From: Halanaeroarchaeum sp. HSR-CO
Lineage (GTDB): Archaea; Halobacteriota; Halobacteria; Halobacteriales; Halobacteriaceae
Reading direction: 5' to 3'
Assembly (NCBI RefSeq): GCF_024972755.1
Contig: NZ_CP087724.1
Coordinates: 620,001 to 684,000, forward strand
Length of the DNA: 64,000 bases
How positions within the stretch are numbered: position 1 is the first letter of the stretch; each line of letters starts with the position of its first letter. Positions 6,792 to 30,362 of the stretch are shown here, piece by piece. The translations under genes and the position numbers were made by a program. The notes below the pieces were generated by a model that saw nothing but the letters and a program-made list of their open reading frames with translations, did not search any database and was not told the origin of the DNA.

Positions 6792-9731
6792 TTATTCTAC
6801 TGGGAAAGAACGATCGTTAGGATTGTAGGTCGCCCCGACTAACGACCTGTCATTCGAGGTTAGGTCATCGGGGTTCTCGATGTAGACCCAGTAGGTGCCA
6901 TATTCACCATCGGTACTCCCGACACTGTCAACGAGATCCGACGTATTGTCGCCACCCGCAGAGGCATCAAGTGTGGTAGAGAGATCGCCAGTTTTCACGA
7001 TTTCCTGTGAACTACGATCAGCATCGATGTCGTCGACCGTTTCGAGGTCGTCAGCGAGAGCAACGTCAGTCTCGGTGCTGATGTCGTAGTTCGTTCCAAC
7101 GAAGTTCCATCCTTCCTTCAACTCGGCAGAACCGGCTGAAACGGTCTGCTCATCATCCTCAACGAAATCAAAGCCAACTCTGGCGTCGCTATTTTCACCA
7201 CTTACGTAGAGACCACTGTGGAGACGCTCATCTTGATCCTGAACGCCAGCATCGTAGAATTCAGTCACGTCGGTCCAGCCGGTATCATTTTCAACATTTT
7301 CGTACCGGGTAATGTCGTTCGTGTTCTGGCTGTAGACCTCTGCGGGTTGGGGTAGCGACATGCGCTGATACCCCTCATTGAGGTCATACGCCTCATGGAC
7401 CAGACGGATCGATTCGGTATCATAGTGGTCTGCCGACGCATTCAGACTGACGTTGAATGTGACCTCGCCTGTCGATGTAGTCGCACTGGTCAAACTAGTA
7501 ATCGAAATCGAAGCAGATCCGGAGTTGGTAGTTGCCTCCTCATTGCTTTCAGCGACGACTGTGCCGTCTTCGTCGACGAGTTTCACGTCCACTTTTTCCA
7601 CAACCGGGTTCGAATATTTGTCCGTGACCTCTACAGTAACATCAGAATTACCGTCCTGTTTGACTACACCAATCAGGTCATTATCGACGTTACTGATTTT
7701 CAGCTGATCGTATTCCGCGGAATTGAACTCCTTGGGGTTCGTCGAATGGGATGAGTCGAATTCGTCCGCCTCGACCTTGATTTGGTACTCGTCGTTGCTT
7801 GCTCCATCCGTGGCGTAAACCCGGAGGTCAGCTGTCGTAACGTTACTAACCGTTTTCACCTTGATGGCCGCTCCTTCGCCACCCTTGAATTGAAGTTCAG
7901 TACCATCCGAAGCAATGATTTTCGGGTCTTGATAGTTTTCAAGATCATCTGGAGCGGTACTGAGGGTGAAGGTAGTATCGAATTCGTCGATATCCTCTTC
8001 AGGGATATTGTTCGTACTGCTCTCGTTGAGCTGAAGCGTGAACGCCTCGTTCGTTCCAGCCGTGTAATCGCCGGGTGATCCATCGAAGCCGAAGTTCACG
8101 TAATCCGGTTTGATCGTCACACTCGTGCTGTCAACTTCATCGCCGTTAAGATTGGTATCACGCGCATCGACCACTTCGGCGCGGATACTATCAGCACCTA
8201 CCGCAGGCTGGATATCGCCAGTCTCGTTCGCGATTGTGATGGAAGTAGTTCCAGCGATGTCAGTCGTGTAGACCTGGGTTGACCGCTCGTCAACGTTCGT
8301 GGTCTCGAGCGTGAATTTCAGGTCAATATTTGTTCCCTCTGCATGCTGGCCAACGGGATTCTCATATTTGTCAACGACCTGGGCATCAGCGGTGATCGAG
8401 CCACCGTTGTATGCCATCTCATCGCCGTCCTCACCTACGGTTGAGAGTTTGATATCGTCAGCATCTACGTGGAGGACTTTAACCGTATCTGACGTGCCAA
8501 CATCTTTCGACAATACTTCACTCGCTTCGAGTTTATAATCCCCAGCCGTTGTTGCGTTGAATTCGAACGTCGTCGAGCCGCTTTCAACGTGTGCGGTTAA
8601 TGTTGATGTTGGCGCACCATACGTTGAATTTATCTCCGCGTCGGAATCGGTAATATCTACGCTATCATTCGATAGTGTAGGGCGTTCTAATACGTCGTCG
8701 GGATCCTCAGTCAATGAAATTTTGGACGGCGCTGTCGAAATGTTTTCATCTGCAATGGGCTCACTACTGGTGTTCAATAATTGTAACGTTGCTGTCGATG
8801 GTGTTCCAGCATCCGTTTCATCCTCTGCTATACTGAAGTCAACGGTATTCGGCTGGACCTCTAACGTGTCCGTTCCTGCCTCAAGCGAACTGTTGTCGAC
8901 TTCCACCTCGAAGTCCCCGACACCCGATTTGAGCGCATCGTCACCGCTCTCGTTGACGACGACACCAACCACTCCGTTATCATCACTGGTGACATCAACC
9001 GACTTCGTGTCCCACTCAGATTCAGTAACCTGATCAGTCAACGTGTAAGTCAGTTCACCTTCCCAATCGTCGACTGTATTTCCATATGTATCTTGGATTG
9101 TCGCATCGATTGTTGCTTCCCCACCTTCGTAATTAATGCTGTCAGCGTTGGAATTAGCTGACACCTTCGTAGCTTCGGCGGGATTAATAGTTGCATTGAT
9201 CGCTGGCTGACCAACGAAGTCCTCATTGGAACCATCGGATGCGGTTACGTTTGCAATTGGCTTATCTGAATATTTCGCCGCTTGGTCTTTCGCACTGTCA
9301 GAGACTTCTACGCCGAATTCAACAGTTACATTGTCATCGGTAGAAGACAGATCTGTCTCACTGTCTAAGTTCAATGTAATATTGACCTTGTGGTCAGATA
9401 GATCGGCCGTGGAAGCGCCAGTGAGACCCTCTGTTTTTAGATCTGTACTTTTCACCTCGGCATATTCAATGTCAAATTCATTACCGTCATCTTCTATTTC
9501 GACTGTAATGTTATCTCCATCGTTATATGTTCCATTTAGATTGAATTCCGCTTCTACAAAGTCTGTGTAATCACCCTCAACTTCATCAGCTGTATAAGTT
9601 GCATTTGCCGTGTCGATCTCGCCTATCGCCGCGGCCGCAGCTGGTGCCGCAAACACCGACAGCACCATCACCGCGGTTAACGCCACGGCGAGTACTGATC
9701 CGTATTTTGCCCGTCTATTGTGTCCTGTCAT
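6792..9731 (-). CDS. S-layer-type surface glycoprotein
   Basis: About 979 residues from the ATG at 9731. The open frame extends to 9845, but the surface-glycoprotein-type signal (NRRAKYGSVLAVALTAVMVLSVFAAPAAAAA) begins right after 9731 and likely TATA boxes lie near or inside the extension. The mature protein is Asp/Glu/Thr/Asn-rich with many N-x-S/T sequons and repeated Ig-like segments (VVDKYENPVGQHA, VQDTYGNTVDDW, VTDKYSNPVVEK). A C-terminal domain starts about GYQRMSLPQPAEVY and contains WNFVGTNYD. No C-terminal membrane helix or PGF-CTERM is visible, so attachment is unexplained. The gene is clearly richer in A/T than its neighbours. The untranslated leader would be some 60-95 nt, like the long leaders of known haloarchaeal S-layer genes. 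It is either the main S-layer protein or a paralogue. Confidence 0.8.
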   Translation of the reverse strand: MTGHNRRAKYGSVLAVALTAVMVLSVFAAPAAAAAIGEIDTANATYTADEVEGDYTDFVEAEFNLNGTYNDGDNITVEIEDDGNEFDIEYAEVKSTDLKTEGLTGASTADLSDHKVNITLNLDSETDLSSTDDNVTVEFGVEVSDSAKDQAAKYSDKPIANVTASDGSNEDFVGQPAINATINPAEATKVSANSNADSINYEGGEATIDATIQDTYGNTVDDWEGELTYTLTDQVTESEWDTKSVDVTSDDNGVVGVVVNESGDDALKSGVGDFEVEVDNSSLEAGTDTLEVQPNTVDFSIAEDETDAGTPSTATLQLLNTSSEPIADENISTAPSKISLTEDPDDVLERPTLSNDSVDITDSDAEINSTYGAPTSTLTAHVESGSTTFEFNATTAGDYKLEASEVLSKDVGTSDTVKVLHVDADDIKLSTVGEDGDEMAYNGGSITADAQVVDKYENPVGQHAEGTNIDLKFTLETTNVDERSTQVYTTDIAGTTSITIANETGDIQPAVGADSIRAEVVDARDTNLNGDEVDSTSVTIKPDYVNFGFDGSPGDYTAGTNEAFTLQLNESSTNNIPEEDIDEFDTTFTLSTAPDDLENYQDPKIIASDGTELQFKGGEGAAIKVKTVSNVTTADLRVYATDGASNDEYQIKVEADEFDSSHSTNPKEFNSAEYDQLKISNVDNDLIGVVKQDGNSDVTVEVTDKYSNPVVEKVDVKLVDEDGTVVAESNEEATTNSGSASISITSLTSATTSTGEVTFNVSLNASADHYDTESIRLVHEAYDLNEGYQRMSLPQPAEVYSQNTNDITRYENVENDTGWTDVTEFYDAGVQDQDERLHSGLYVSGENSDARVGFDFVEDDEQTVSAGSAELKEGWNFVGTNYDISTETDVALADDLETVDDIDADRSSQEIVKTGDLSTTLDASAGGDNTSDLVDSVGSTDGEYGTYWVYIENPDDLTSNDRSLVGATYNPNDRSFPVE

Positions 9732-16859: not shown

Positions 16860-17435
16860 ATGGCACGCATCACGCTCGCCGACCCCGCGGATCTGCCCCC
16901 CGAGAAACGCTCGCTGCTCGACTCCCTGTCGGACGCCGACGACGCCGTCGTCGACCACGACCTCGAGGGCGGGACGCTCAACGTCTACCGCGCGCTCGGA
17001 CGGAACCTCCCCATCCTCGAGGGCTTCCGCGACTTCGGCGGGGCCGTCTGGCACGGCAGCGACCTCGAACCGGTCGAACGCGAACTCGTCATTCTGGCCA
17101 CCTCCTACCACACCGATATGCGCTACGAGTGGCACCAGCACGTCCGCGTGGCCCTCGACGAGGGCATCTCCCCGGAGACCATCCTCGCGGTCTCGATGGA
17201 TCGCCTTGACGAACTCGACCCCGAACACGCACGGCTGGTCGAGTACGTCGAACACTTCGTCGCGAAGGACGTCGACGACGAGACCCACGAACGCCTCGCC
17301 GCCCACTACGACGAGGCGACCATCGTCGGCATCGGCATGCTCTCCGGGCTCTACCTCGGTCTCGCGCACGTCCTCGACGCGCTGGCCGTCGACCTCGAGG
17401 CGCCCTTCGTCGGGTGGGAACTCGAGAACCTTTAG
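16860..17435 (+). CDS. Carboxymuconolactone-decarboxylase/AhpD-fold family protein
   Basis: 191 residues from the ATG at 16860; the frame opens at 16818 but the N-terminal 14 codons look non-native. The all-helical core contains ERELVILATSYHTDMRYEWHQHVRVALDEG, the EWxxH-type signature of the CMD superfamily. The second half (EYVEHFVAKDVDDETHERLAAHYDEATIVGIGML) fits the family repeat. It lacks the CxxC pair of true AhpD peroxidase partners, so peroxidase activity is unlikely. The function is unknown. Its stop overlaps the convergent gene by four bases. Confidence 0.8.
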   Translation: MARITLADPADLPPEKRSLLDSLSDADDAVVDHDLEGGTLNVYRALGRNLPILEGFRDFGGAVWHGSDLEPVERELVILATSYHTDMRYEWHQHVRVALDEGISPETILAVSMDRLDELDPEHARLVEYVEHFVAKDVDDETHERLAAHYDEATIVGIGMLSGLYLGLAHVLDALAVDLEAPFVGWELENL

Positions 17436-18097
17436 GCGATATTCCGACTCAGGTCGACGGTGATGCCACCGGAGAGGTCCAGTTTGACCGTCTCCTGGGG
17501 CGCGCTTCGCCCGCGGAACTTCGGCACCGAGAGTCGCGTGTCGATACCGTCGTCGGTGACGTCTGCCGATAGCTGGAAGGCGATGTCCGCGACGTAGTCG
17601 GTGACGTCCCGGTGGTCGGGCACCGCCTGCCCGTCCAGACAGTGGAGCACCCCGATGCTGTTCGTCCGGGTCAGGACTCCAGAAAGGTCGTTCAGAAACC
17701 CCAGGTAGTCGTCGGTCTCCGCCCACTCGAAGACGTCCACGGGGTCGACGACGACGGTCGTCTCCGGGGGAATCTCGTCGATGAGGGCAATCGCCTCCCG
17801 GAGCATCGACGGCGCCCCCGCTGCCGCCTGCGCCGATGACGCCGGACCGAACTCCTTCACGGCGACGCCATCGGGCGGGACGCCGGCCCGGTCCAGGGAA
17901 TCGCGGACGGCGGGGGCCGGACGCATCGTCGTGAGGTAGACCGTCGGGCGTGCGGCGACCATCTCGTGGATGAGTATCTCGGCCTGACTGTTCGGCGGCG
18001 CCGCGAGTTTGACCAGACTGCCACGCGGGATCCCACCGTCCAGCAACCGGTCGAGCGAATCGATACCCGTCGGTAGTCGGTCGATCATCGATGTCAT
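17432..18097 (-). CDS. RecA/KaiC-like (RAD55-type) ATPase-fold protein with degenerate Walker A
   Basis: 221 residues. It opens like a KaiC/RadA-type protein (IDRLPTGIDSLDRLLDGGIPRGSLVKL), but where GxxxxGKT is expected it reads APPNSQAE, so the P-loop lysine is missing. The Walker B strand is present as TTVVVDPVDVFEWAE. The core beta strands (TVYLTTMRPAP, SIGVLHCLDGQ, FQLSADV) and a C-terminal beta hairpin (RLSVPKF... VKLDLSGGITVDLSRNIA) fit the family. It probably does not hydrolyse ATP in the standard way and may be a structural or regulatory paralogue. It is transcribed away from the pilus region. Confidence 0.75.
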   Translation of the reverse strand: MTSMIDRLPTGIDSLDRLLDGGIPRGSLVKLAAPPNSQAEILIHEMVAARPTVYLTTMRPAPAVRDSLDRAGVPPDGVAVKEFGPASSAQAAAGAPSMLREAIALIDEIPPETTVVVDPVDVFEWAETDDYLGFLNDLSGVLTRTNSIGVLHCLDGQAVPDHRDVTDYVADIAFQLSADVTDDGIDTRLSVPKFRGRSAPQETVKLDLSGGITVDLSRNIA

Positions 18098-18608: not shown

Positions 18609-19037
18609 ATGCAACTGAAACAATTCCTCGGTTCGGATGAGGATCGCGCGGTCTCCCCGGTCATCGGCGTCGTGCTCATGCTCACGGCGACGGTGATCAT
18701 CGGAGGCGTCGTGGCCTCGTTCGTGACCGGAATGGGGAGTGGGATGGAGAGTGCGCCGCAGGCGAGCTTCGACTTCGACTACGACGACACGGACAAAAAC
18801 GTCACCATCACGCACGAGGGAGGTGCGACCATTGCCGCTGATCAACTCGAGGTCAGGGTGTCTGGGAACAATACCGATACGATAGAAGTGTCGGATAGGG
18901 TGAATGATTCGGTTTCCACGGGAACGGAGATCGATATTGGTGATGTCTACGATGACGATAAGGTTCGTCTCGTCTGGGAAAGCCCTGACAGCGACAAGAC
19001 CAGCCAACTCGGGAAGTGGGTCGGCCCGGACGCCTGA
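18609..19037 (+). CDS. Type IV pilin (PilA-like)
   Basis: 142 residues from the ATG at 18609. The short charged leader FLGSDEDRAVSPVIGVVLM is a class III signal: prepilin peptidase (PibD) would cut before the hydrophobic helix around RAVSPVIGVVLMLTATVIIGG. That helix is the archaeal type IV pilin N-terminal domain. The mature globular part is small and acidic (ASFDFDYDDTDKNVTITHEGG...) with a few N-x-S/T sites. The frame is open from 18537, but only the 18609 start gives a proper pilin leader. It lies just upstream of a second pilin-like gene and the pilB-pilC operon, which presumably assembles it. Confidence 0.85.
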   Translation: MQLKQFLGSDEDRAVSPVIGVVLMLTATVIIGGVVASFVTGMGSGMESAPQASFDFDYDDTDKNVTITHEGGATIAADQLEVRVSGNNTDTIEVSDRVNDSVSTGTEIDIGDVYDDDKVRLVWESPDSDKTSQLGKWVGPDA

Positions 19038-20641: not shown

Positions 20642-20772
20642 CGACCACAACGCGCGTGCGGTGCCGGGTCGACGGCCAGGAGGTCGGGGCCACCATGGCC
20701 ACCGATCGGCGTACCCTTGCGGGCCATTCGACCGGCTCACCGCGCCATGGACGGGGGGAGAAGCGATGTTAG
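20638..20772 (+). CDS. Possible 44-residue small protein, overlapping both neighbours
   Basis: An ATG overlaps the stop of the large pilin-like gene (ATGA at 20638), and the reading frame stops inside the start of the next small gene. The encoded peptide (MTTTTRVRCRVDGQEVG... RHGRGEKRC) is basic, unlike typical haloarchaeal proteins. The overlaps are the only support for translation; it could equally be noise. Confidence 0.25.
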   Translation: MTTTTRVRCRVDGQEVGATMATDRRTLAGHSTGSPRHGRGEKRC

Positions 20773-20912
20773 CGACCTTCGGACGGATGCTCGCGTGGGG
20801 GGACGGCCGGGTCGTCGTCCACGAGTGTCGGCGATGTGGCACGACTCTCGACGGACCGGACGCGGCGTGTCCGTTCGGCTGTTCGGCGGGGGTCGTCCAC
20901 TACGAGATCTGA
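20766..20912 (+). CDS. Small zinc-ribbon protein (48 residues)
   Basis: From the ATG at 20766 the protein reads MLATFGRMLAWGDGRVV then HECRRCGTTLDGPDAACPFGCS and ends VVHYEI. Two Cys pairs (CRRC and CPFGC) suit one zinc ion, as in the many haloarchaeal CPxCG-type micro-proteins. The longer upstream extension of the frame (to 20661) has non-haloarchaeal composition and is unlikely to be translated. It probably belongs to the pilus region transcript. A run of nine G follows one base after the stop. Confidence 0.6.
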   Translation: MLATFGRMLAWGDGRVVVHECRRCGTTLDGPDAACPFGCSAGVVHYEI

Positions 20913-21224: not shown

Positions 21225-24020
21225 GTGACAGTGGCTAAAAGCGACCGACCGGTCTCCGGCGGCGACGGACCGACGTTGCTGCCACCGGTGGACGAGACGC
21301 CGCCGGCGGTCCTGGGGGAGTACACCTGGGCCGCCTACATGCGCGAGCACGGCCACGAAGACGAAATCGAGGCGCTCTACAGCGCGGCCGCGGAACGGGA
21401 CGAACCCGCGGGATGGCTCGAGGGCAGACGAGCCGAGCAGCCGGACGTGCCGGTTCCCGAGGGGGACGCGTGGGAGGCCGTCGCGTTCGATCCGACGGAC
21501 GTCCTCGGATTCCACCCCGACGCGACCGCGCGTCGACTCGAGGAGACCGGCTCCAGTGCCAGGGCCGTCTGGACGGCCTTCGCGGAGTGGATCTGGCGCA
21601 CGCCGGTCACCAAAGACGAGTACACCTGGGAGCACTACAAGTGGGAGTACTTCTACGAGGACGACGGCCGACTGCCGCGAGACGAGAATGGAGCGTTGAT
21701 CGAGTTCGACCCCGCCGAGGCACTGGGCTTCGAGCCCGCGTCGATCGAGGCGCGACTCGACGACCTCGCAGACCGGGCCGAGGCCACGCTCGAACTCGAG
21801 GACCGGCGGACGGTCGACGTCAACCCCGACATCGACGAGGACGACTTCTTCTCCTCGGCCGAGGGCGAGACCACCCTGGTCAACCGCTACGACCTGGAGA
21901 AGGCCGTCTCGATGGACCGGAAACTCGAGTTCACGGAGGTCGAGCGCTACTGGGTGAACGAACCGCACGCCTTCGTCATCATCTTTCACTCGGCGAAGGA
22001 GAACGAGGAGAAGTACTACCTCGTCACGCCGTACCTCAACGAGATCGAAGCCGACCTCGTCGATTTTCTCTCGGGGAAACTCCGGACCGTCATCAGAAAC
22101 GCAGACGAGGCGGTCGGCATCGCGACGACGCCCGAGGAGCGAGCTGCGGTGCTCGAACGGGAGATCGAGGGGTTGCTCGACCGGTACGACCTTCGGAGTG
22201 AATCCACGTCCATTCTCGCGGACGTACGCGAGCGCATCGAATCGGTTCTCGGGGACGGGGACGAACCGGCGCCGGAACCGCCGAATCCCCTCGACGGCAT
22301 CGCGGCACGGCCGGAACCGGTCGTCGTCGAGGAGGACTCGGAGACGCTCACGCCGTATCAGGTACAGAAGTTGCTGCACGTCCTGATACGGGATTTCATC
22401 GGGTACGAGCGGATCGACGGCATCAAACACGACGTGAACGTCGAGGACATCTCCTGTGACGGCTACGACCAGCCGGTGTTCGTCTACCACACCGAGTACG
22501 AGAACCTCATCACCAACGTCCGCCACGGGCGAACGCAACTCGACAACTTCGTCATCAAACTCGCCCAGCGCTCCGGGAAGGGGATCAGCAAGCGGCGACC
22601 CCAGGTCGACGCCACCCTGCCCGACGGCTCGCGAGCCCAGTTGACCCTCGGCGAGGAGGTCTCGGACCACGGGACGAACTACACCATCCGGCAGTTCAAC
22701 GACGTCCCCTTCACGCCCATCGACCTGATCAACTGGAACACGTTCTCGCTCGACCAGATGGCGTTCCTCTGGCTGGCCATCGAGAACAACAAGAGCATCA
22801 TCTTCGCGGGCGGGACCGCCTCGGGGAAGACCACGACGCTGAACGCCGCCTCGCTGTTCATCCCGTCGAACACCAAGATCGTCTCCATCGAGGACACGCG
22901 GGAGGTGGAGCTGCCCCAGCGCAACTGGATCGCCTCGATTACTCGCCCCTCGTTTACGGACGACGACACCGGTAACGTCGACGAGTTCGACCTGCTGGAG
23001 ACCGCGCTCCGCCAGCGCCCCGAGTACATCGCCATGGGCGAGGTCCGGGGCGAGGAGGGGCGGACGCTCTTCCAGGTCATGTCGACCGGCCACACCACGG
23101 TGACGACGTTCCACGCGGACTCCATCGGCGAGGTCCTCAAGCGGTTCACGACCGACCCGATCAACGTCTCGAAGACCATGTTCACCGGCGTGGACCTGGT
23201 CTGTGTGCAGACTCAGACCCGGGTACAGGGCCGGAAGGTCCGCCGGGCGAAGACCATCACCGAGGTGAACCACTACGACGCCGAGAACGACGAGATCAAC
23301 GTCCAGGACGTCTACAAGTGGCATCCCGAGTCCGACAGCCACCGACAGAACGGCGTTCCGAACACCCTCGACGACATCACCTTCGACCAGGGGTGGAGCG
23401 ACGCGCGACTCGACGAGGAACGGGCCAAGCGGAAGGCGGTCCTCGCGTACTTGATCGAGAACGACCTCACGGAGTACGCACAGGTCGCCGCCACCCTGCA
23501 GGCCTTCATGAAGGACCCGGACACGGTCCTGGCGCTAATGGCACGCGGATCGCTCGAGCGGAGCCTCGAGAACCTGCGCGAGATGGAGAGCATCGGCATC
23601 GACGTCCAGCCGGAGAAGGAGGCCCTGGTGCCTCGACCCACCGCCGACGAGGAGATGCGCCGTCAGGTCCGCGAGGTCCTCGCCGAGGCGGAGGAGCGCT
23701 TCCTCGCGGCGTACGAGACGGTCGAACCGAGTCCACTCGTGAGTGCGCTCTCTGACGTGCGACCAGCCGAGGACGTCGTCGTCGAACCGAGTACCGACCC
23801 AGCGGAACCAGAACCAGTGGCCGGCAACGGGAGCGACGCAGAGCCCCCATCGCAGGCCACCTCGGACGATCACGAATCCACTACCATGAACGACAGCGAC
23901 CTGTTCGCGGACCTGCTCGACGACCGCGACCGACTCGACGACATGCTCGACGACGAGACGAACGACCCGTCGTCCGGGACGACCTCGGACGACGAATCGA
24001 CCAGCGACCCACGGAGGTAG
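21225..24020 (+). CDS. pilB: Type IV pilus assembly ATPase PilB (archaeal TadA/VirB11-like)
   Basis: 931 residues from a GTG start after AGGGG; a second GTG two codons later is possible. Cytoplasmic motor for pilus assembly, partner of PilC. It carries Walker [11 protein letters not shown] (about 525-535), the Asp box and Walker B region ([28 protein letters not shown]), and a His box [15 protein letters not shown]. The N-terminal third is unusual: two related modules begin EYTW (about 32 and 132), each with an FDP..xLGF.P sequence. The C-terminus (about 790-931) is an acidic disordered tail rich in Ser, Thr and Asp. A four-base gap separates it from the P1-like gene. It is longer than typical archaeal PilB because of these extensions. 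Confidence 0.95.
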
Positions 24021-24024
24021 ACCA

Positions 24025-24330
24025 ATGGAATACGCACTCGCAGCACTCATCCTGAACGAGACGGGCGAAGAGATCAACGAACACAACCTGACCGCGGTCC
24101 TCGAGGCGGCCGGTGCACCGATAGTGGAATCGCGCACCAAGGCGCTCGTCGCCGCCCTCGAGGGGGTGGACCTGGACACGGCGACGCGGGGCGAATCGGT
24201 GACCGACGGCGGTCGATTCATCTTCGAGGACACCGAATCGGCCGGTGAGACGAACGGGGATTCCGCGGCTACCGAATCGAACGAGGTGACCAAGGCCGAG
24301 AGCGCGGATTCCGAACCGGACGGGGCATAG
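24025..24330 (+). CDS. Ribosomal stalk protein P1/L12-like protein inside the pilus operon
   Basis: 101 residues. The first 50 ([19 protein letters not shown]... [26 protein letters not shown]) read as the N-terminal helical dimerisation domain of archaeal ribosomal protein L12/P1, very close to the haloarchaeal ribosomal version as I recall it. The remainder is an acidic Thr/Ser/Glu-rich tail that lacks the conserved GLGxLFG-type C-terminus, through which true stalk proteins bind translation factors. It sits 4 bases after pilB and 3 bases before pilC, so it is surely co-expressed with them. It is therefore not a normal rpl12 gene but a paralogue recruited to, or hitchhiking in, the pilus system. 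What it binds is unknown; the retained dimer domain suggests protein-protein contact. Confidence 0.85.
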
Positions 24331-24333
24331 GCG

Positions 24334-26358
24334 ATGGCCCGCAGCGTCTTCGATCGGGTCCCGGTGGCCGCGTTGACCCTTGACGTCGATAGCCTCGCCG
24401 ATATCGGGTACCCGCTGTACCGCCGCCTGTTCGACGGCCGTTCGCCACCCGAGGAGTTCGAACGGAAACTCGCCGAAGCGCGCCTGTCGACACCGGTGGA
24501 GGTCTACCTCTCGAAGTCGCTGGCGGTCGGACTGCTGGCCGGCGTCTCGCTGTGGCTCGTGGGGACCTTCCTCGGGTACCTCGCGTTCGTCGTCGCGAAC
24601 GTCCTGTCCGGCCCGCTCATCGGCGTCTCGATACAGAACGAGGGGCTGCTCGCATTCTTCGCGAACGTGCGAACCCCGCTGCTCGTGCTCACGACCGGCG
24701 TCGTCTTCGGGACCCTCGGCTTCGCCGGCGGGTTCGGCGCACTCCTGGCGTACCCCTACTCGGTGTCGTACAATCGCCGTCGGCAGATCAACATGCTGTT
24801 GCCGGACGCCGTCTCGTACATGTACGCGCTCTCGGTCGGTGGCATGAACCAGCTAGAGGTCATCCAGGAGATGGCGAAGGCCGACGACACCTACGGCGAG
24901 GTCTCCCGTGAGTTCCGGAGCATCGTCCAGGAGACCGAGTACTTCGATACGGACTACCGGTCGGCGATCAGGAAGCAGGCGAACAGCTCGCCCAGCGACG
25001 GCCTGCAGGCGTTCCTGATCGACATGCTCTCGATCATCAACAGTGGTGGTGACATGACGGAGTTCCTCGAAGAACAGAAAGAAAAACACATGCGGACGGC
25101 CAGACAGGAACAGGAGGACGTCCTCGAGACCCTCGAACTGTTCGCGGAGATGTACCTCACCATCTCGTTGTTCCCGTTGCTCTTGATCATCGTCTTCGTC
25201 GTGATGGTGCTGCTCGGCGAACTCTCCACGTCGCTCCTGTTCGTAGCCGTCTACGGGCTGATTCCGATAACGGCGGTCCTCTTTTTGGGGCTCGTCGCCA
25301 CCGTCACGCGTGACGAATTCGGCACGGGTACCATCTCGACCGAGGGCGAGAACGCGTGGCTCGAAGCCGAGACGGAGACGGGCGTCTGGAACCGCGGCCT
25401 GATCGAAGCCTTCGTCGGCACCTACCGCATCTTCGGCCGGATCGCCGAGCGGGAACGGATCTACGACGTGGTGCAGGTGGCGAAACGACCGCATCACTTC
25501 TTCCGCGACAACCCGCTGTACACGCTCGCCGTTACGGTGCCCGCCACGATCGCACTGGTCGGCGGGCTCCTGGCGACGAACGCGGTACCAACGACGTGGA
25601 ACGGCCTGGTCCGGCAGCCGATCTGGGGGACGTTCGTCTACCTGTTCGCCCCGCTGTACGTGATCGCCCTCCCACTCGCGGTGTTCCACGAGTGGAACGT
25701 CCGCTCACGCACCGCGGTCCTCGAGACACTGACGGACGACCTCCGGAAGCTGGCCAGCGTGAACGACACCGGGATGACCCTGCTCGAATCCATCGGGACG
25801 GTCGGTCGGACCTCCTCTGGGAAACTCGCCCGGGAGCTTCAGGGGATGTACGACAACGTCAACTACGGGATGAGTCTGCGCGAGTCGCTCGTCGAGTTCA
25901 ACAACCGGTACCGCATCCCGCGGCTGGCGCGGACCGTGAAACTCATCAGTAAGTCCCAGGAGGCGTCCAGTCAGATCACCACGGTGTTGCGGACCGCCGC
26001 GACCGCCAGCGAGAACCAGGACGACCTGGATCGCGAGCGCCGGTCCCGGACACGGATGCAGGTCGCCATCATCGTGATGACCTTCGTGGCGATGCTCGGC
26101 GTCCTCGTCATTCTCAAGACACAGTTCATCGACGTCATGGCCGGCCTGACCGACGGGAGCGGCCGAGGGTCGCTGGGCTTCGGTGGCGCGGTGGACACGG
26201 GCCAACTCTCGTTGCTGTTCTTCCACGCCATCTCGCTGCAGGCCGTCCTCACGGGCATCAGCGCCGGCTACCTCCGGAACAACAGCCTCCTCGCGGGCGC
26301 GAAGTACGTCGTCGCCCTCTCGACGGTCGCCCTCGTGGTGTGGACGGTGGTGAGCTGA
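24334..26358 (+). CDS. pilC: Type IV pilus membrane platform protein PilC (TadC/GspF-like)
   Basis: 674 residues with two GspF/T2SSF domains. The first (about 150-300) begins NRRRQINMLLPDAVSYMYAL with EVIQEMA, then LFAEMYLTISLFPLLLII. The second (about 455-600) reads VLETLTDDLRKLASVNDTGMTLLESI... YGMSLRESLVEFNNRY. About eight or nine transmembrane helices lie near 60-145, 255-320, 400-450 and 570-674. It is the inner-membrane platform that couples PilB to pilin insertion. It starts 3 bases after the P1-like gene and ends 1 base before the next gene, so the operon is tight. Confidence 0.95.
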   Translation: MARSVFDRVPVAALTLDVDSLADIGYPLYRRLFDGRSPPEEFERKLAEARLSTPVEVYLSKSLAVGLLAGVSLWLVGTFLGYLAFVVANVLSGPLIGVSIQNEGLLAFFANVRTPLLVLTTGVVFGTLGFAGGFGALLAYPYSVSYNRRRQINMLLPDAVSYMYALSVGGMNQLEVIQEMAKADDTYGEVSREFRSIVQETEYFDTDYRSAIRKQANSSPSDGLQAFLIDMLSIINSGGDMTEFLEEQKEKHMRTARQEQEDVLETLELFAEMYLTISLFPLLLIIVFVVMVLLGELSTSLLFVAVYGLIPITAVLFLGLVATVTRDEFGTGTISTEGENAWLEAETETGVWNRGLIEAFVGTYRIFGRIAERERIYDVVQVAKRPHHFFRDNPLYTLAVTVPATIALVGGLLATNAVPTTWNGLVRQPIWGTFVYLFAPLYVIALPLAVFHEWNVRSRTAVLETLTDDLRKLASVNDTGMTLLESIGTVGRTSSGKLARELQGMYDNVNYGMSLRESLVEFNNRYRIPRLARTVKLISKSQEASSQITTVLRTAATASENQDDLDRERRSRTRMQVAIIVMTFVAMLGVLVILKTQFIDVMAGLTDGSGRGSLGFGGAVDTGQLSLLFFHAISLQAVLTGISAGYLRNNSLLAGAKYVVALSTVALVVWTVVS

Positions 26359-26359
26359 C

Positions 26360-26890
26360 GTGCCCGGGAGCCATCGCCCTGCCGACGACCGAGCGACGGA
26401 CGGCCGCCGTGGCCAGACGACGCTCGATTTCGTCCTGGCCATCGGGGTGTTCATCGTCGCCGTCGCGTTCGTCTTCGGCTTCGTCCCGGGGATGGTCGAT
26501 CCGTTCACGCAGGACCAGGCCGAGGGACAGGTCGCGGATCGGGTGGCCGACGCCGTCGTCGACGACCTCACCGACGGCGTGGACGAGCCCGGCGAACTGA
26601 ACGAGACGAAGACGGTGGCGTTCTTCGACGGTCCCGCCGACCTCGCCGACCGCGCCGGCGTCGACTCGCGGTACGGGATCACCGTGTCGCTGGGTCGCCC
26701 GGTCGACGGCGAGGATGATCTGCAGGTGCTCTGTGGAGAGAGCGGGGACGTCCACTCCTGTAGCGCTGGTGGCGAGGCCCTGCAGATCGGCGATTCGGTA
26801 CCGGCGTCGAGTACGACCATCGGAACTGCTCGGCGAACGGTGCTAGTCGACGACCAGATAGCCATCGTTCACGTACAGGTGTGGTCGTGA
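26360..26890 (+). CDS. Pilin-like protein of the pil operon (DUF7287-type)
   Basis: 176 residues from a GTG start one base after pilC. A charged leader (DDRATDGRRGQTTLDF) leads into a hydrophobic helix (VLAIGVFIVAVAFVFGFVPG), the layout of a class III signal peptide. The mature part is short, acidic and beta-rich, with two Cys (LCGESGD and SCSAGG) that may form a disulphide. It is probably a minor pilin or pseudopilin. The stop overlaps the next start by one base (TGATG). Confidence 0.75.
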   Translation: MPGSHRPADDRATDGRRGQTTLDFVLAIGVFIVAVAFVFGFVPGMVDPFTQDQAEGQVADRVADAVVDDLTDGVDEPGELNETKTVAFFDGPADLADRAGVDSRYGITVSLGRPVDGEDDLQVLCGESGDVHSCSAGGEALQIGDSVPASSTTIGTARRTVLVDDQIAIVHVQVWS

Positions 26891-27480
26891 TGGACGACAG
26901 AGCACAGGCGTTCACGCTCGAGGCGGTCCTGGCTGCGGTGCTGCTCGTCGCGAGTCTGGCGTTCGCCCTCCAGGCAACGGCAGTGACGCCGGTCAGCCCG
27001 AGCGAGTCCACGACCAACGAGGCGGTGCAACGCGCTTCGGTCGCCGCGGGTGCCCTCGACACGACGGTGGCGAACGGGGCTGCCAAACGCGCATTGCTGG
27101 CCTGGAACGAATCGAGTGGGGGCTTCGTCGGGGCCACCGAGGAGGGATACTACGTAACCGGCGACCCGCCGACCGCCTTCGGCGAGACGATGCATCGGAC
27201 GCTTTCCGCCGAGAGCGTCGCCTACAACGTCGACCTCGTGTACCTCACTCCGGAGGGGGAGTACCGAACCACGGCACTCGTCGACCAGGGGACCCCCAAC
27301 GATGGGGCGACCCGCGTCGCCCGAACCGTGACGCTTCACGACGACGATAGGCTCACTCGTCTCGACGGGCGAGAGCGCAACGTCACGGTCTCCGAGACGG
27401 CGTTTTTCGCCCCCAATGTGGACACCGACAGCGATCTCTACAACGTGATCCGCGTGGAGGTGACCGTATGGCGGTCCTGA
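26890..27480 (+). CDS. Pilin-like protein of the pil operon (DUF7288-type)
   Basis: 196 residues from the ATG at 26890 (a GTG at 26881 would add three residues). The leader MDDRAQAFTLEAVLAAVLLVASLAFAL is a pilin-like signal and helix with the key Phe-Thr-Leu-Glu, resembling bacterial prepilin FTLxE motifs. The globular part has features such as EEGYYVTGDPPTAFGETMHR and ends VIRVEVTVWRS. It overlaps the next gene by 13 bases. Its role is inferred from the operon. Confidence 0.75.
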   Translation: MDDRAQAFTLEAVLAAVLLVASLAFALQATAVTPVSPSESTTNEAVQRASVAAGALDTTVANGAAKRALLAWNESSGGFVGATEEGYYVTGDPPTAFGETMHRTLSAESVAYNVDLVYLTPEGEYRTTALVDQGTPNDGATRVARTVTLHDDDRLTRLDGRERNVTVSETAFFAPNVDTDSDLYNVIRVEVTVWRS

Positions 27481-28490
27481 TCGAACGGGACGTCCTCGCT
27501 GGCGACGGTCGGGGCCCCGATGGACGGCGAGGACAGCTCCTCTTCGTCACGGCTATCGGCCTCGCGGTCCTCCTGGTCGTCCTCTCGGCGACCCTCAACG
27601 CGACCGTCGACACCGGTGGCGTCGGGCCGGATGGGACGGCGACCGACGCGAGTTCGAACGCGCTCCGATTCCAGGCCGACGCAGCGGTCGCTATCGGCAC
27701 GGCCATGGACCACGTGAACCAGGGGACCGAGGATTCGTATTCCGACCTCGAAGACGCACTGGAGAAGCGTGTCGATGCGTGGAGTGACCTCGCCGTCCGT
27801 CACACCGCTCGCGACGGGACCTGGGTGCGGGCGACCGTCGTCGACACCACCGACGGCACGAGACTGGCCCAGACCAATGCCTCTCGCCCCCTCACTAACG
27901 TGGACGGGAACGAGACCTGGACGGTCGTGAGCGATGCCGACCGCGTTCGGGCCATTCGCCTGGCGCCGTCCAACGAGTCACTCGTCGAAGTCACGACTCC
28001 GTCGCCGACCGTCACTCAGCTCGAGAACGAGGACGTCTTCACCGTCACCCTCCACGGCGACGACCAATCGGCCCGCGTGTTCGTCTACCGGACCGACGAC
28101 GACCCGGCAGTCGTCTCGGTCGACAGCGGTGACGGGAGCCTCGAGGGGTCGTGCGCCGTTCCGGTCGGGCCAGACGGTCGTTTCGGTATCGACCTCACCG
28201 CGGCCACGGTCTCGGACACCGACTGCGAGCCACTCGAAGCGCTCGCCGACGTCGACGGGCCGTACACCGTGGAATTCGACAACGGTGACAGCGCCGTCGG
28301 GACCTACTCGCTCGTCGTCGACCGGCGGCCGAGCGAACTCGATACAGACGGGTTCCACGCGGATGGCGATGCCGGCGGTCCCACCGCGACGAAAGCCATC
28401 TACGATTCGACCGTGGAGACGACCTACGCCTCCCGAACGATCGACACGACGCTGGAACACCGGATCGCTCCGGGGGAGTTCGATGACTGA
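27468..28490 (+). CDS. Pilin-like protein of the pil operon (DUF7261-type)
   Basis: 340 residues. The N-terminal leader DGRRGQLLFVTAIGLAVLLVVLSATLNATVDT carries a charged stretch and a hydrophobic helix. A long acidic extracellular region follows, with N-x-S/T sites and a Cys pair (GSCAVPVG, TDCEPLE). It overlaps both neighbours (13 bases before, 8 bases after), which supports translational coupling. It probably forms part of the pilus or its tip complex. Confidence 0.75.
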   Translation: MAVLIERDVLAGDGRGPDGRRGQLLFVTAIGLAVLLVVLSATLNATVDTGGVGPDGTATDASSNALRFQADAAVAIGTAMDHVNQGTEDSYSDLEDALEKRVDAWSDLAVRHTARDGTWVRATVVDTTDGTRLAQTNASRPLTNVDGNETWTVVSDADRVRAIRLAPSNESLVEVTTPSPTVTQLENEDVFTVTLHGDDQSARVFVYRTDDDPAVVSVDSGDGSLEGSCAVPVGPDGRFGIDLTAATVSDTDCEPLEALADVDGPYTVEFDNGDSAVGTYSLVVDRRPSELDTDGFHADGDAGGPTATKAIYDSTVETTYASRTIDTTLEHRIAPGEFDD

Positions 28491-28941
28491 TCGTGCCGTC
28501 TCGGCCGTGGTGAACTACGTGCTGGTCCTCGGTATCGTGACCCTCCTCGGGACGGGCCTGTTCGTCGCCGCGACGGACTACGTCCAGGGTCAACAGTCGA
28601 CAGCGATCCGCGCGGAGTTCCTGGACGTCGGCAACGATCTGGCCGGGGAGCTATCGGACACGGAACGGGTGGCCCGATCGGCCGACGGGGACGGACAGGT
28701 CGTAGCCGCCGTCGACCTCCCCGAGCGTGTCGCCGGGAGTCCGTATCGGATCACGATAGAGCCCACCGGCGCGGACAGGGGGGAACTCGTCCTCCGGTCG
28801 AGCGATCCGGCGGTCACCGTCACGGTGCCCTTCAGAAGTCGGACGCCGGTCGCCGAGACGACGGTCGAAGGCGGTCCCGTCGTGATCCGCGCCGCAGTGA
28901 CGGATGGGAACGTCACTGCACTGGAGGTGGCCGATGGCTGA
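28483..28941 (+). CDS. Pilin-like protein of the pil operon (DUF7266-type)
   Basis: 152 residues from the ATG at 28483. The leader MTDRAVSAVVNYVLVLGIVTLLGTGLFVA is short, with Arg close to the membrane helix as in archaeal pilins. The rest (QQSTAIRAEFLDVGNDLAGELSDTERVA... ELVLRSSDPAVTVTVPF) alternates helix and strands. It overlaps the preceding gene by 8 bases and the following one by 8 bases. It is probably a minor pilin. Confidence 0.75.
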   Translation: MTDRAVSAVVNYVLVLGIVTLLGTGLFVAATDYVQGQQSTAIRAEFLDVGNDLAGELSDTERVARSADGDGQVVAAVDLPERVAGSPYRITIEPTGADRGELVLRSSDPAVTVTVPFRSRTPVAETTVEGGPVVIRAAVTDGNVTALEVADG

Positions 28942-29647
28942 CCGTGGCCAATCGGAGGTGATCGGATTCGTCCTCGTGTTCGCCCTGGTCGTTTCCACCG
29001 TCTCGCTCGCGTCGGTGGCCGGATTCGGTGGTCTCCAGGACGCCCGCGACTACGAGCGGTCGCACAACGCCGAGCAGGCCTTCGCGGTGCTCGCGAACGG
29101 TATCGACGACGTCGCCTACGAGGGGGCGCCCAGTCGGCAGGTCGAGATGGTCGCCGACGAGGCACAGGTGTTCGTCGGTGACCCGGTCACCATCACCGTC
29201 GCCGTCGCTGGCGGCGGTGCCGAATCGGTCACCGTTCATCCAATCGTCTACCAGGGACCGGACGGGTCACGACTGGTCTACACCGCCGGTGCGGTCATCC
29301 GGGCGGACCCGGATGGCGCCGTCATGATCCGGGAGCCCGACCTCGTGTTGAGCGAAGCGCGAACTGTCCTTCGGATCGTGCAGACTCGAAACGACGACGG
29401 GGCGAACGTCGGGGGTGCCACGGTCCGCGTCAGGGCAGATGGCGTCGACGATAACGCAGTGTTCGCGAACACGACCACACAGGACGTCACGCTCACCGTC
29501 GAGTCGCCACGAGCGGGGGTCTGGAAGCAGTACTTCACCTCGAACGACGATCTCGACTGCACCGAAACGGCGGACGCGGTCACCTGTGAGGTGACGTCCG
29601 ACGCCGTACACGTGACGGTCTCGGAGATAGTCGTCGGGCTCTCATGA
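28934..29647 (+). CDS. Pilin-like protein, last gene of the pil operon (DUF7289-type)
   Basis: 237 residues from the ATG at 28934. The leader MADRGQSEVIGFVLVFALVVSTVSLASVAG is a pilin-type signal. The GQSEVIGFVL segment resembles the QTETIGVVIL segment of the large protein at 19154, so these two belong together. The extracellular part is Ig-like and acidic, with a C-terminal Cys pair (DDLDCTETADAVTCEV). It ends the operon; a convergent carbonic anhydrase gene follows 22 bases later. Confidence 0.75.
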   Translation: MADRGQSEVIGFVLVFALVVSTVSLASVAGFGGLQDARDYERSHNAEQAFAVLANGIDDVAYEGAPSRQVEMVADEAQVFVGDPVTITVAVAGGGAESVTVHPIVYQGPDGSRLVYTAGAVIRADPDGAVMIREPDLVLSEARTVLRIVQTRNDDGANVGGATVRVRADGVDDNAVFANTTTQDVTLTVESPRAGVWKQYFTSNDDLDCTETADAVTCEVTSDAVHVTVSEIVVGLS

Positions 29648-29669: not shown

Positions 29670-30362
29670 TTATTTCAGCAGTCGCCGAACGCTATCGGTG
29701 AACGCGTCTGGGATCGCCGTTCGGATCGTTTCGGGGTCCGTCTCACCGTCCAGATTGACGAGGTACGTCCGCCCCTCGTCGTCCCCGTAGACGCGCTGGA
29801 AGTCGTAGACGAACCCAAGTACGGTCACCGCGTCCGGGACGTCGTCGCTCTCACGGAGGAAGGCCACCTGTCTGTCCACGTTGTACTCGACGAGTTGGTC
29901 GACGAGGCTCGTCGCCCGGTCCGGGTCGACGCGGTCGTCGTCCAGTCCCGCCTCGACGACCGGGACGAGCATCTCGACCCACTTCCTTACCCCGGGCGGC
30001 GCGTCGAGGTCCCCTTCCTCGACGGCCTCGAGTGCGGCCGTCACCGCTCCACAGCCGGTATGTCCGACCACTACGGCCACCTCGGTATCGGTGTACGCCA
30101 TCGGATACAGGACGCTGCCATCGACGACCGTTTCATTCTCGTATCGATCCCACACCTGATTGCCGATCGTACTCGGGGTGAACAACCAGCCCGGTTCGTC
30201 GACCGCCCACATCCCCTCCTGGGAAACCCGGGAGTCCGAACAGCAGACGGAGACGACCGGTGGTTGCTGTGCCGTCTGGACCGCCGAGAAGTACCCCTCG
30301 GGGAGCGAAGCGACGTGGCGCTCGTTCCCGCCCAGGAGTGCTCTGATGACGTCGTCGGCCAT
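29670..30362 (-). CDS. Beta-class carbonic anhydrase
   Basis: 230 residues. It interconverts CO2 and bicarbonate, with one zinc per subunit. The zinc ligands are visible: Cys in VVSVCCSDSRVSQ (about 40, with the CxDxR dyad) and His-x-x-Cys in VVGHTGCGAV (about 99-102). Length and order match the beta class. Start ATG at 30362; the stop faces the end of the pil operon. Nothing in the neighbourhood ties it to a specific pathway. Confidence 0.92.
   Translation of the reverse strand: MADDVIRALLGGNERHVASLPEGYFSAVQTAQQPPVVSVCCSDSRVSQEGMWAVDEPGWLFTPSTIGNQVWDRYENETVVDGSVLYPMAYTDTEVAVVVGHTGCGAVTAALEAVEEGDLDAPPGVRKWVEMLVPVVEAGLDDDRVDPDRATSLVDQLVEYNVDRQVAFLRESDDVPDAVTVLGFVYDFQRVYGDDEGRTYLVNLDGETDPETIRTAIPDAFTDSVRRLLK

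Follow-up and report, generated by a model that had tools for sequence, protein, structure and literature searches.

A ribosomal stalk P1-like gene separating pilB from pilC in an additional, KaiC-associated type IV pilus operon of haloarchaea

Ribosomal P1 dimerises, and P1 dimers dock on the P0 spine. The LFG end of the protein is needed for binding of EF1A: deletion of these three residues abolishes the interaction in P. horikoshii P1 (PMC6791870). On the side of the pili, it is already known from the 2016 archaeal pilus census of Makarova et al. (PMC4858521) that KaiC-family proteins accompany type IV pili of archaea, in some cases with a helical partner; the words 'ribosomal' and 'L12' do not occur in its main text. 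A literature search, mostly outside the subscription journals, turned up no paper that describes P1 within a pil operon.

The window analysed here is a stretch of 64,000 nucleotides (G000:C1:620001-684000) from a haloarchaeal genome of 2.79 Mb. It contains a pilus locus with the following features:

17432..18097, minus strand: KaiC-like DUF7125 protein; degenerate Walker A with PxSQxE instead of GKT/S; present in 12/12 P1-bearing loci
18609..19037, plus strand: type IV pilin (Pilin_N, Pfam 3.5e-23); the start is the ATG ahead of a signal-like segment
19055..20641, plus strand: large pilin-like protein (DUF7289 + DUF7308, Pfam); homologues in other loci
20661..20912, plus strand: small Cys-rich (zinc-ribbon-like) ORF of 83 aa, start uncertain; 45% identical match in L170
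21225..24020, plus strand: pilB, secretion/pilus assembly ATPase (T2SSE, Pfam 1.9e-28) with long N- and C-terminal extensions
24025..24330, plus strand: pil-associated P1-like protein of 101 aa, start ATG, stop TAG; identified by the 3A1Y match, TIGR03685, PF00428 and AlphaFold2
24334..26358, plus strand: pilC, platform membrane protein with two T2SSF domains (Pfam 1.3e-29); P1-bearing PilC lineage by trees
26360..26890, plus strand: minor pilin-like protein, DUF7287 (Pfam 3.9e-35)
26881..27480, plus strand: minor pilin-like protein, DUF7288 (Pfam 1.6e-51)
27468..28490, plus strand: DUF7261-like protein (Pfam 6.2e-4, under the cut-off; the H. mediterranei orthologue is DUF7261, 1.5e-6)
28483..28941, plus strand: small DUF7266-like pilin with an approximate start, sharing 42% identity with the DUF7266 protein of H. 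mediterranei
28904..29647, plus strand: DUF7289 pilin-like protein (Pfam 7.1e-53)

In other P1-bearing loci, too, homologues of the pilin at 18609..19037 adjoin the gene for the KaiC-like protein. The pilus operon is followed by a carbonic-anhydrase-like gene (29670-30362, minus strand, recognised by eye), which is probably an ordinary neighbour.

The P1-like gene is tightly packed between its neighbours. The pilB stop at 24020 is followed by a gap of 4 nt and the P1-like ORF by a gap of 3 nt before the pilC start at 24334, and the spacing reported in the first-pass annotation is borne out by these coordinates. Roughly the first 55 residues of the protein form the N-terminal dimerisation domain of a stalk protein, and a disordered acidic tail follows. 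The match to P. horikoshii P1 (PDB 3A1Y) covers residues 1-53, with an E value of 1e-13. The NCBIfam model of archaeal P1 (TIGR03685, ribo_P1_arch) gave 2.7e-17 and 63 bits, which is under its equivalog cut-off of 100, and Pfam PF00428 gave 25.5 bits with a cut-off of 28.1. AlphaFold2 predicted four helices for residues 1-40 (pLDDT 94-98) and disorder for the tail; superposition of the predicted domain on 3A1Y_A (VIA-align) gave a Z score of 9.9 and an rmsd of 2.4 over 57 residues with 58% identity. The TIGR03685 match and the sequence and structure matches to 3A1Y rule out a chance similarity, and the assignment of the first 50 or so residues to the P1/L12 domain, made earlier from the letters alone, holds. 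As for the tail, it is acidic and lacks GLGxLFG as had been described, but besides the acidic residues it contains Ser, Thr, Gly and Ala and is not mainly Thr and Ser.

The first-pass annotation had named a missing rpl12 elsewhere in the genome as the observation that would turn the P1-like gene into the ribosomal one. An intact rpl12 was found at G000:C1:1548425-1548700 (minus strand), where it adjoins rpl1 and rpl10; its product ends in GLGDLFG and is 71% identical to the P1-like protein across the first 51 aa. The gene in the window is thus a paralogue, and a ribosomal gene misplaced into the pil operon is ruled out. A scan of genome_contigs yielded 75 loci as the closest relatives, none of them beside pilB-pilC, and the copies read among them were rpl12 genes with a GLGxLFG end, bar one frameshifted record. 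A P1 tree of 58 columns was poorly resolved, and the pil copies need two changes on it. One scan of viral_contigs gave no relative, and a viral origin of the gene was dropped.

Is the arrangement peculiar to one genome? The earlier proposal was to search haloarchaeal genomes for P1-like genes inside pil operons, and this search added 11 carriers; the other refuting condition named there, that no further genome has such a gene in a pil operon, did not come about. A P1-like gene between pilB and pilC is present in 12 haloarchaea of at least three families: the window genome, 10 genomes of two other families and plasmid pHME505 of Haloferax mediterranei. A second P1-like match was found in 37 of the 392 genomes of the order, and among the matches listed the gene lay between pilB and pilC in G094, G187, G288, G291, G294, G321, G350 and G381. 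A profile search of two whole families added G461 and G463, and a plasmid search added the cultured laboratory strain H. mediterranei ATCC 33500, whose ORF, at NZ_CP039140.1 321738-322175, falls in a gap of the supplied annotation. By family, the P1-bearing genomes number 1/26, 5/146 and 5/170, plus H. mediterranei; these counts refer to inspected genomes with a second P1 match, so that very diverged copies could be missed. The gap between pilB and the P1-like gene is 2-6 nt across the P1-bearing loci. A fusion of P1 to PilC by stop-codon read-through was also considered and rejected, as the in-frame spacing, compared by hand, is not general across loci. All 11 P1-bearing genomes have a normal rpl12 of their own (H. 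mediterranei is covered by its plasmid record alone).

Strong second P1-like copies in other families are normal-tailed paralogues away from pil genes. A second P1 of the type MEYVYAALILHEAD... is carried by several haloarchaea, many of them in one family; it has the usual GLGxLFG end and is encoded apart from both pil and rpl1-rpl10 (L174-L180, L185, L186, L189-L192, L195-L197 and L199). At L195, in G027, two P1 genes face apart (around 4252, plus strand, and 5277, minus strand), and the P1 beside rpl10 of the same genome ends in ...DLGGLFGDGEEEG, so that the protein runs on past its factor-binding motif. In G518 an ORF (L329:6861-7817, plus strand) starts with two tandem P1-type domains and shares part of its length, in a different reading frame, with an ORF of kinase-like appearance, judged by eye (L329:7168-8106, plus strand). 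The pair may be a frameshifted fusion of P1 domains to a kinase, and it suggests that the P1 domain has been put to a non-ribosomal use a second time.

The P1-bearing operon is an additional one. Two PilC copies of this type were present in 11/11 P1-bearing genomes and one or none in the P1-less relatives examined; a normal pilB-pilC operon without P1 was likewise found in 11/11 P1-bearing genomes examined, in the window genome at C1:1376106-1378091. In nearly all normal operons pilB and pilC are spaced by -4 to +3 nt, and it is here that the P1-bearing operons hold the P1-like gene. When two PilC matches at E 1e-100 were sought, 13 of the 392 genomes of the order had them, nine of these being P1-bearing. 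Among the other four, G027 looks like a split gene, and in G203, G309 and G368 the second PilC is not accompanied by P1. These P1-less second pilB-pilC operons (L334/L358 in G203, L335/L357 in G309, L336/L356 in G368) differ in that the second PilC of G309 and G368 falls outside the normal PilC clade and that of G203 inside it.

In the PilC tree the 12 P1-associated PilCs stood on one side of a branch with an SH-aLRT of 91, and they remained outside the normal clade when outgroups were included. A tree that groups the 12 PilCs in the presence of the outgroup scored 6 log units above the free search and was not rejected (p-AU 0.76). The P1-bearing PilCs are compatible with a single origin. P1-bearing PilBs have an N-terminal motif of the type YTWxx(F/L/Y)MxExGY and a W122 more often than normal PilBs; shared ancestry alone may account for the PilB differences between the groups. 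In G094 (L170) both tails are repetitive: EPTSEAMD recurs about twelve times in that of PilB (about 7700-8293) and AMEDP several times in that of P1.

The stalk domain of the pil-associated proteins (pil-P1) is under purifying selection and the tail is weakly constrained: in seven pairs dN/dS was 0-0.32 for the domain and 0.5-1.1 for the tail. The homologue of G381, with 62 aa, is essentially the domain alone and has no tail. Residues kept in the 11 full-length pil-P1 include Y3, A6, L10, E16, E19, N21, S36, R37, K39, A40, A43-E46, V48 and D49. In contrast, pil-P1 varies at positions 30-35, which hardly change across 161 rpl12 sequences. P1 distances correlate with those of PilB (r 0.84) and PilC (r 0.83) of the same operon, but a species proxy is tracked too (r 0.78), so that the correlation is not specific and is weak as evidence.

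The recruitment of a stalk domain to a pilus operon, as the first-pass annotation had it, is well supported: the gene keeps the same place in 12 haloarchaea, goes with a separate PilC lineage, is under purifying selection and occurs in genomes that also have an intact ribosomal copy. Judged from these genomes, there is an archaeal type IV pilus system in which a ribosomal stalk domain appears as a stable extra component, and more than an accident of one genome. What the protein does may be explained as follows. We lean, if only somewhat, to the reading that the P1-like gene is derived from a copy of the ribosomal P1/aL12 gene and that its product serves the second type IV pilus system of haloarchaea, the KaiC-associated one, as a dedicated accessory subunit in the cytoplasm and docks as a dimer on the motor. 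By analogy with the P1 family the stalk domain would form a dimer, and the accessory subunit is probably dimeric. Just as P1 dimers sit on the P0 spine, the dimer would dock on a helical element of the motor, most likely in the extended N-terminal region of the P1-bearing PilB, and might from there bridge or tune PilB, PilC or the pseudo-ATPase related to KaiC, with the acidic tail as a spacer that the protein could do without. A dimerising adaptor for the pilus motor, as put forward in the first-pass annotation, is a good candidate. For the more far-reaching version, in which the domain through which stalk proteins dimerise has permanently become a structural subunit of the type IV pilus motor, docks on PilB as P1 does on P0, has a non-ribosomal role and, together with a KaiC-like pseudo-ATPase, defines a distinct class of haloarchaeal pili, we put the chances at even. 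Stalk P1 is known as a part of the ribosome; a stable copy in a pilus operon, if true, would be a ribosomal module with a new job in a membrane-bound motor. P1 between pilB and pilC also marks a distinct and easily recognised class of haloarchaeal pili.

It might be thought that a stalk protein encoded with a pilus links pilus assembly to translation, and such a coupling had indeed been suggested. It is not supported, because the LFG end (GLGxLFG) is missing in 12/12 pil-P1, the window copy and 11 homologues, and the P1-bearing operons contain no P0-like spine: tblastn with P0 and with the P0 spine gave E values of 0.2 or worse in these operons, and a spine encoded there was dropped as a candidate. 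The same loss of the end needed for EF1A binding would suit a modulator of translation made together with the pilus. Pil-P1, which retains the domain that dimerises and binds P0 in P1, would bind P0 or pair with ribosomal P1 to give a stalk arm without a factor-binding end, and translation would be altered when the operon is on. We consider this unlikely. The position between pilB and pilC is fixed and confined to one PilC lineage, the product of a lone pilus-operon gene would face competition from the abundant ribosomal P1, and positions 30-35 are free in pil-P1.

The preferred reading, an accessory subunit docked on the motor, has also to be weighed against one in which the P1-like protein works with the KaiC-like DUF7125 protein. 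Together they would form a signalling or assembly checkpoint module, much as ArlH serves the archaellum ATPase ArlI, with no direct contact of P1 to PilB or PilC. The DUF7125 gene accompanies all 12 P1-bearing loci and none of the 16 normal loci, which were read over 19 kb, and KaiC-family proteins beside archaeal type IV pili, in some cases with a helical partner, are known from the census. The Walker A of DUF7125 is broken, PxSQxE-like, in 14/14 copies read. But the DUF7125 gene is also found in the P1-less second operons of G309 (L357) and G203 (L358), and where P1 is present it is not adjacent to it and often lies on the opposite strand, so that we regard a P1-DUF7125 module as improbable. 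The KaiC-associated operons without P1 (G309, G203 and possibly G368) also mean that P1 is not essential to every system of this kind.

That a hitchhiking duplicate of rpl12 landed in the pil operon and was kept without a pilus role would fit the patchy spread over three families, but is very unlikely in view of the purifying selection on the domain, the long history shared with the operon, the tight gap to pilB and the failure to find any tail-less P1 outside the pilus operon.

How, then, does the P1-bearing locus compare with the systems already described? Like ribosomal P1/aL12, pil-P1 has a four-helix N-terminal domain, whose first 50 residues are about 70-80% identical to those of haloarchaeal rpl12, and an acidic, flexible tail. 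Unlike it, pil-P1 is encoded outside the rpl1-rpl10-rpl12 cluster, lacks GLGxLFG, stays under the TIGR03685 equivalog cut-off and has a weakly constrained tail, absent in one homologue. With the euryarchaeal clade 2 PilB4-like pili, as far as they are described in the census (PMC4858521), the locus shares a PilB extended at both termini, a PilC and the downstream pilins DUF7287, DUF7288, DUF7261 and DUF7289. Going by the domain layout and the pilin set given there, the window pilus is probably PilB4-like and a member of clade 2, which holds HVO_1160 (PilB4). It departs from the clade 2 loci of that account in that a P1-like gene splits pilB and pilC, DUF7125 is always near and the PilC forms a separate lineage. 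The window PilB scored 389 bits with the NCBIfam ArlI/FlaI equivalog model, under the cut-off of 550. As with ArlH, ArlI and ArlJ of the archaellum, a KaiC-family protein is found alongside a secretion ATPase and a platform protein; in contrast to ArlH, the KaiC-like DUF7125 protein of the P1-bearing loci has a degenerate Walker A.
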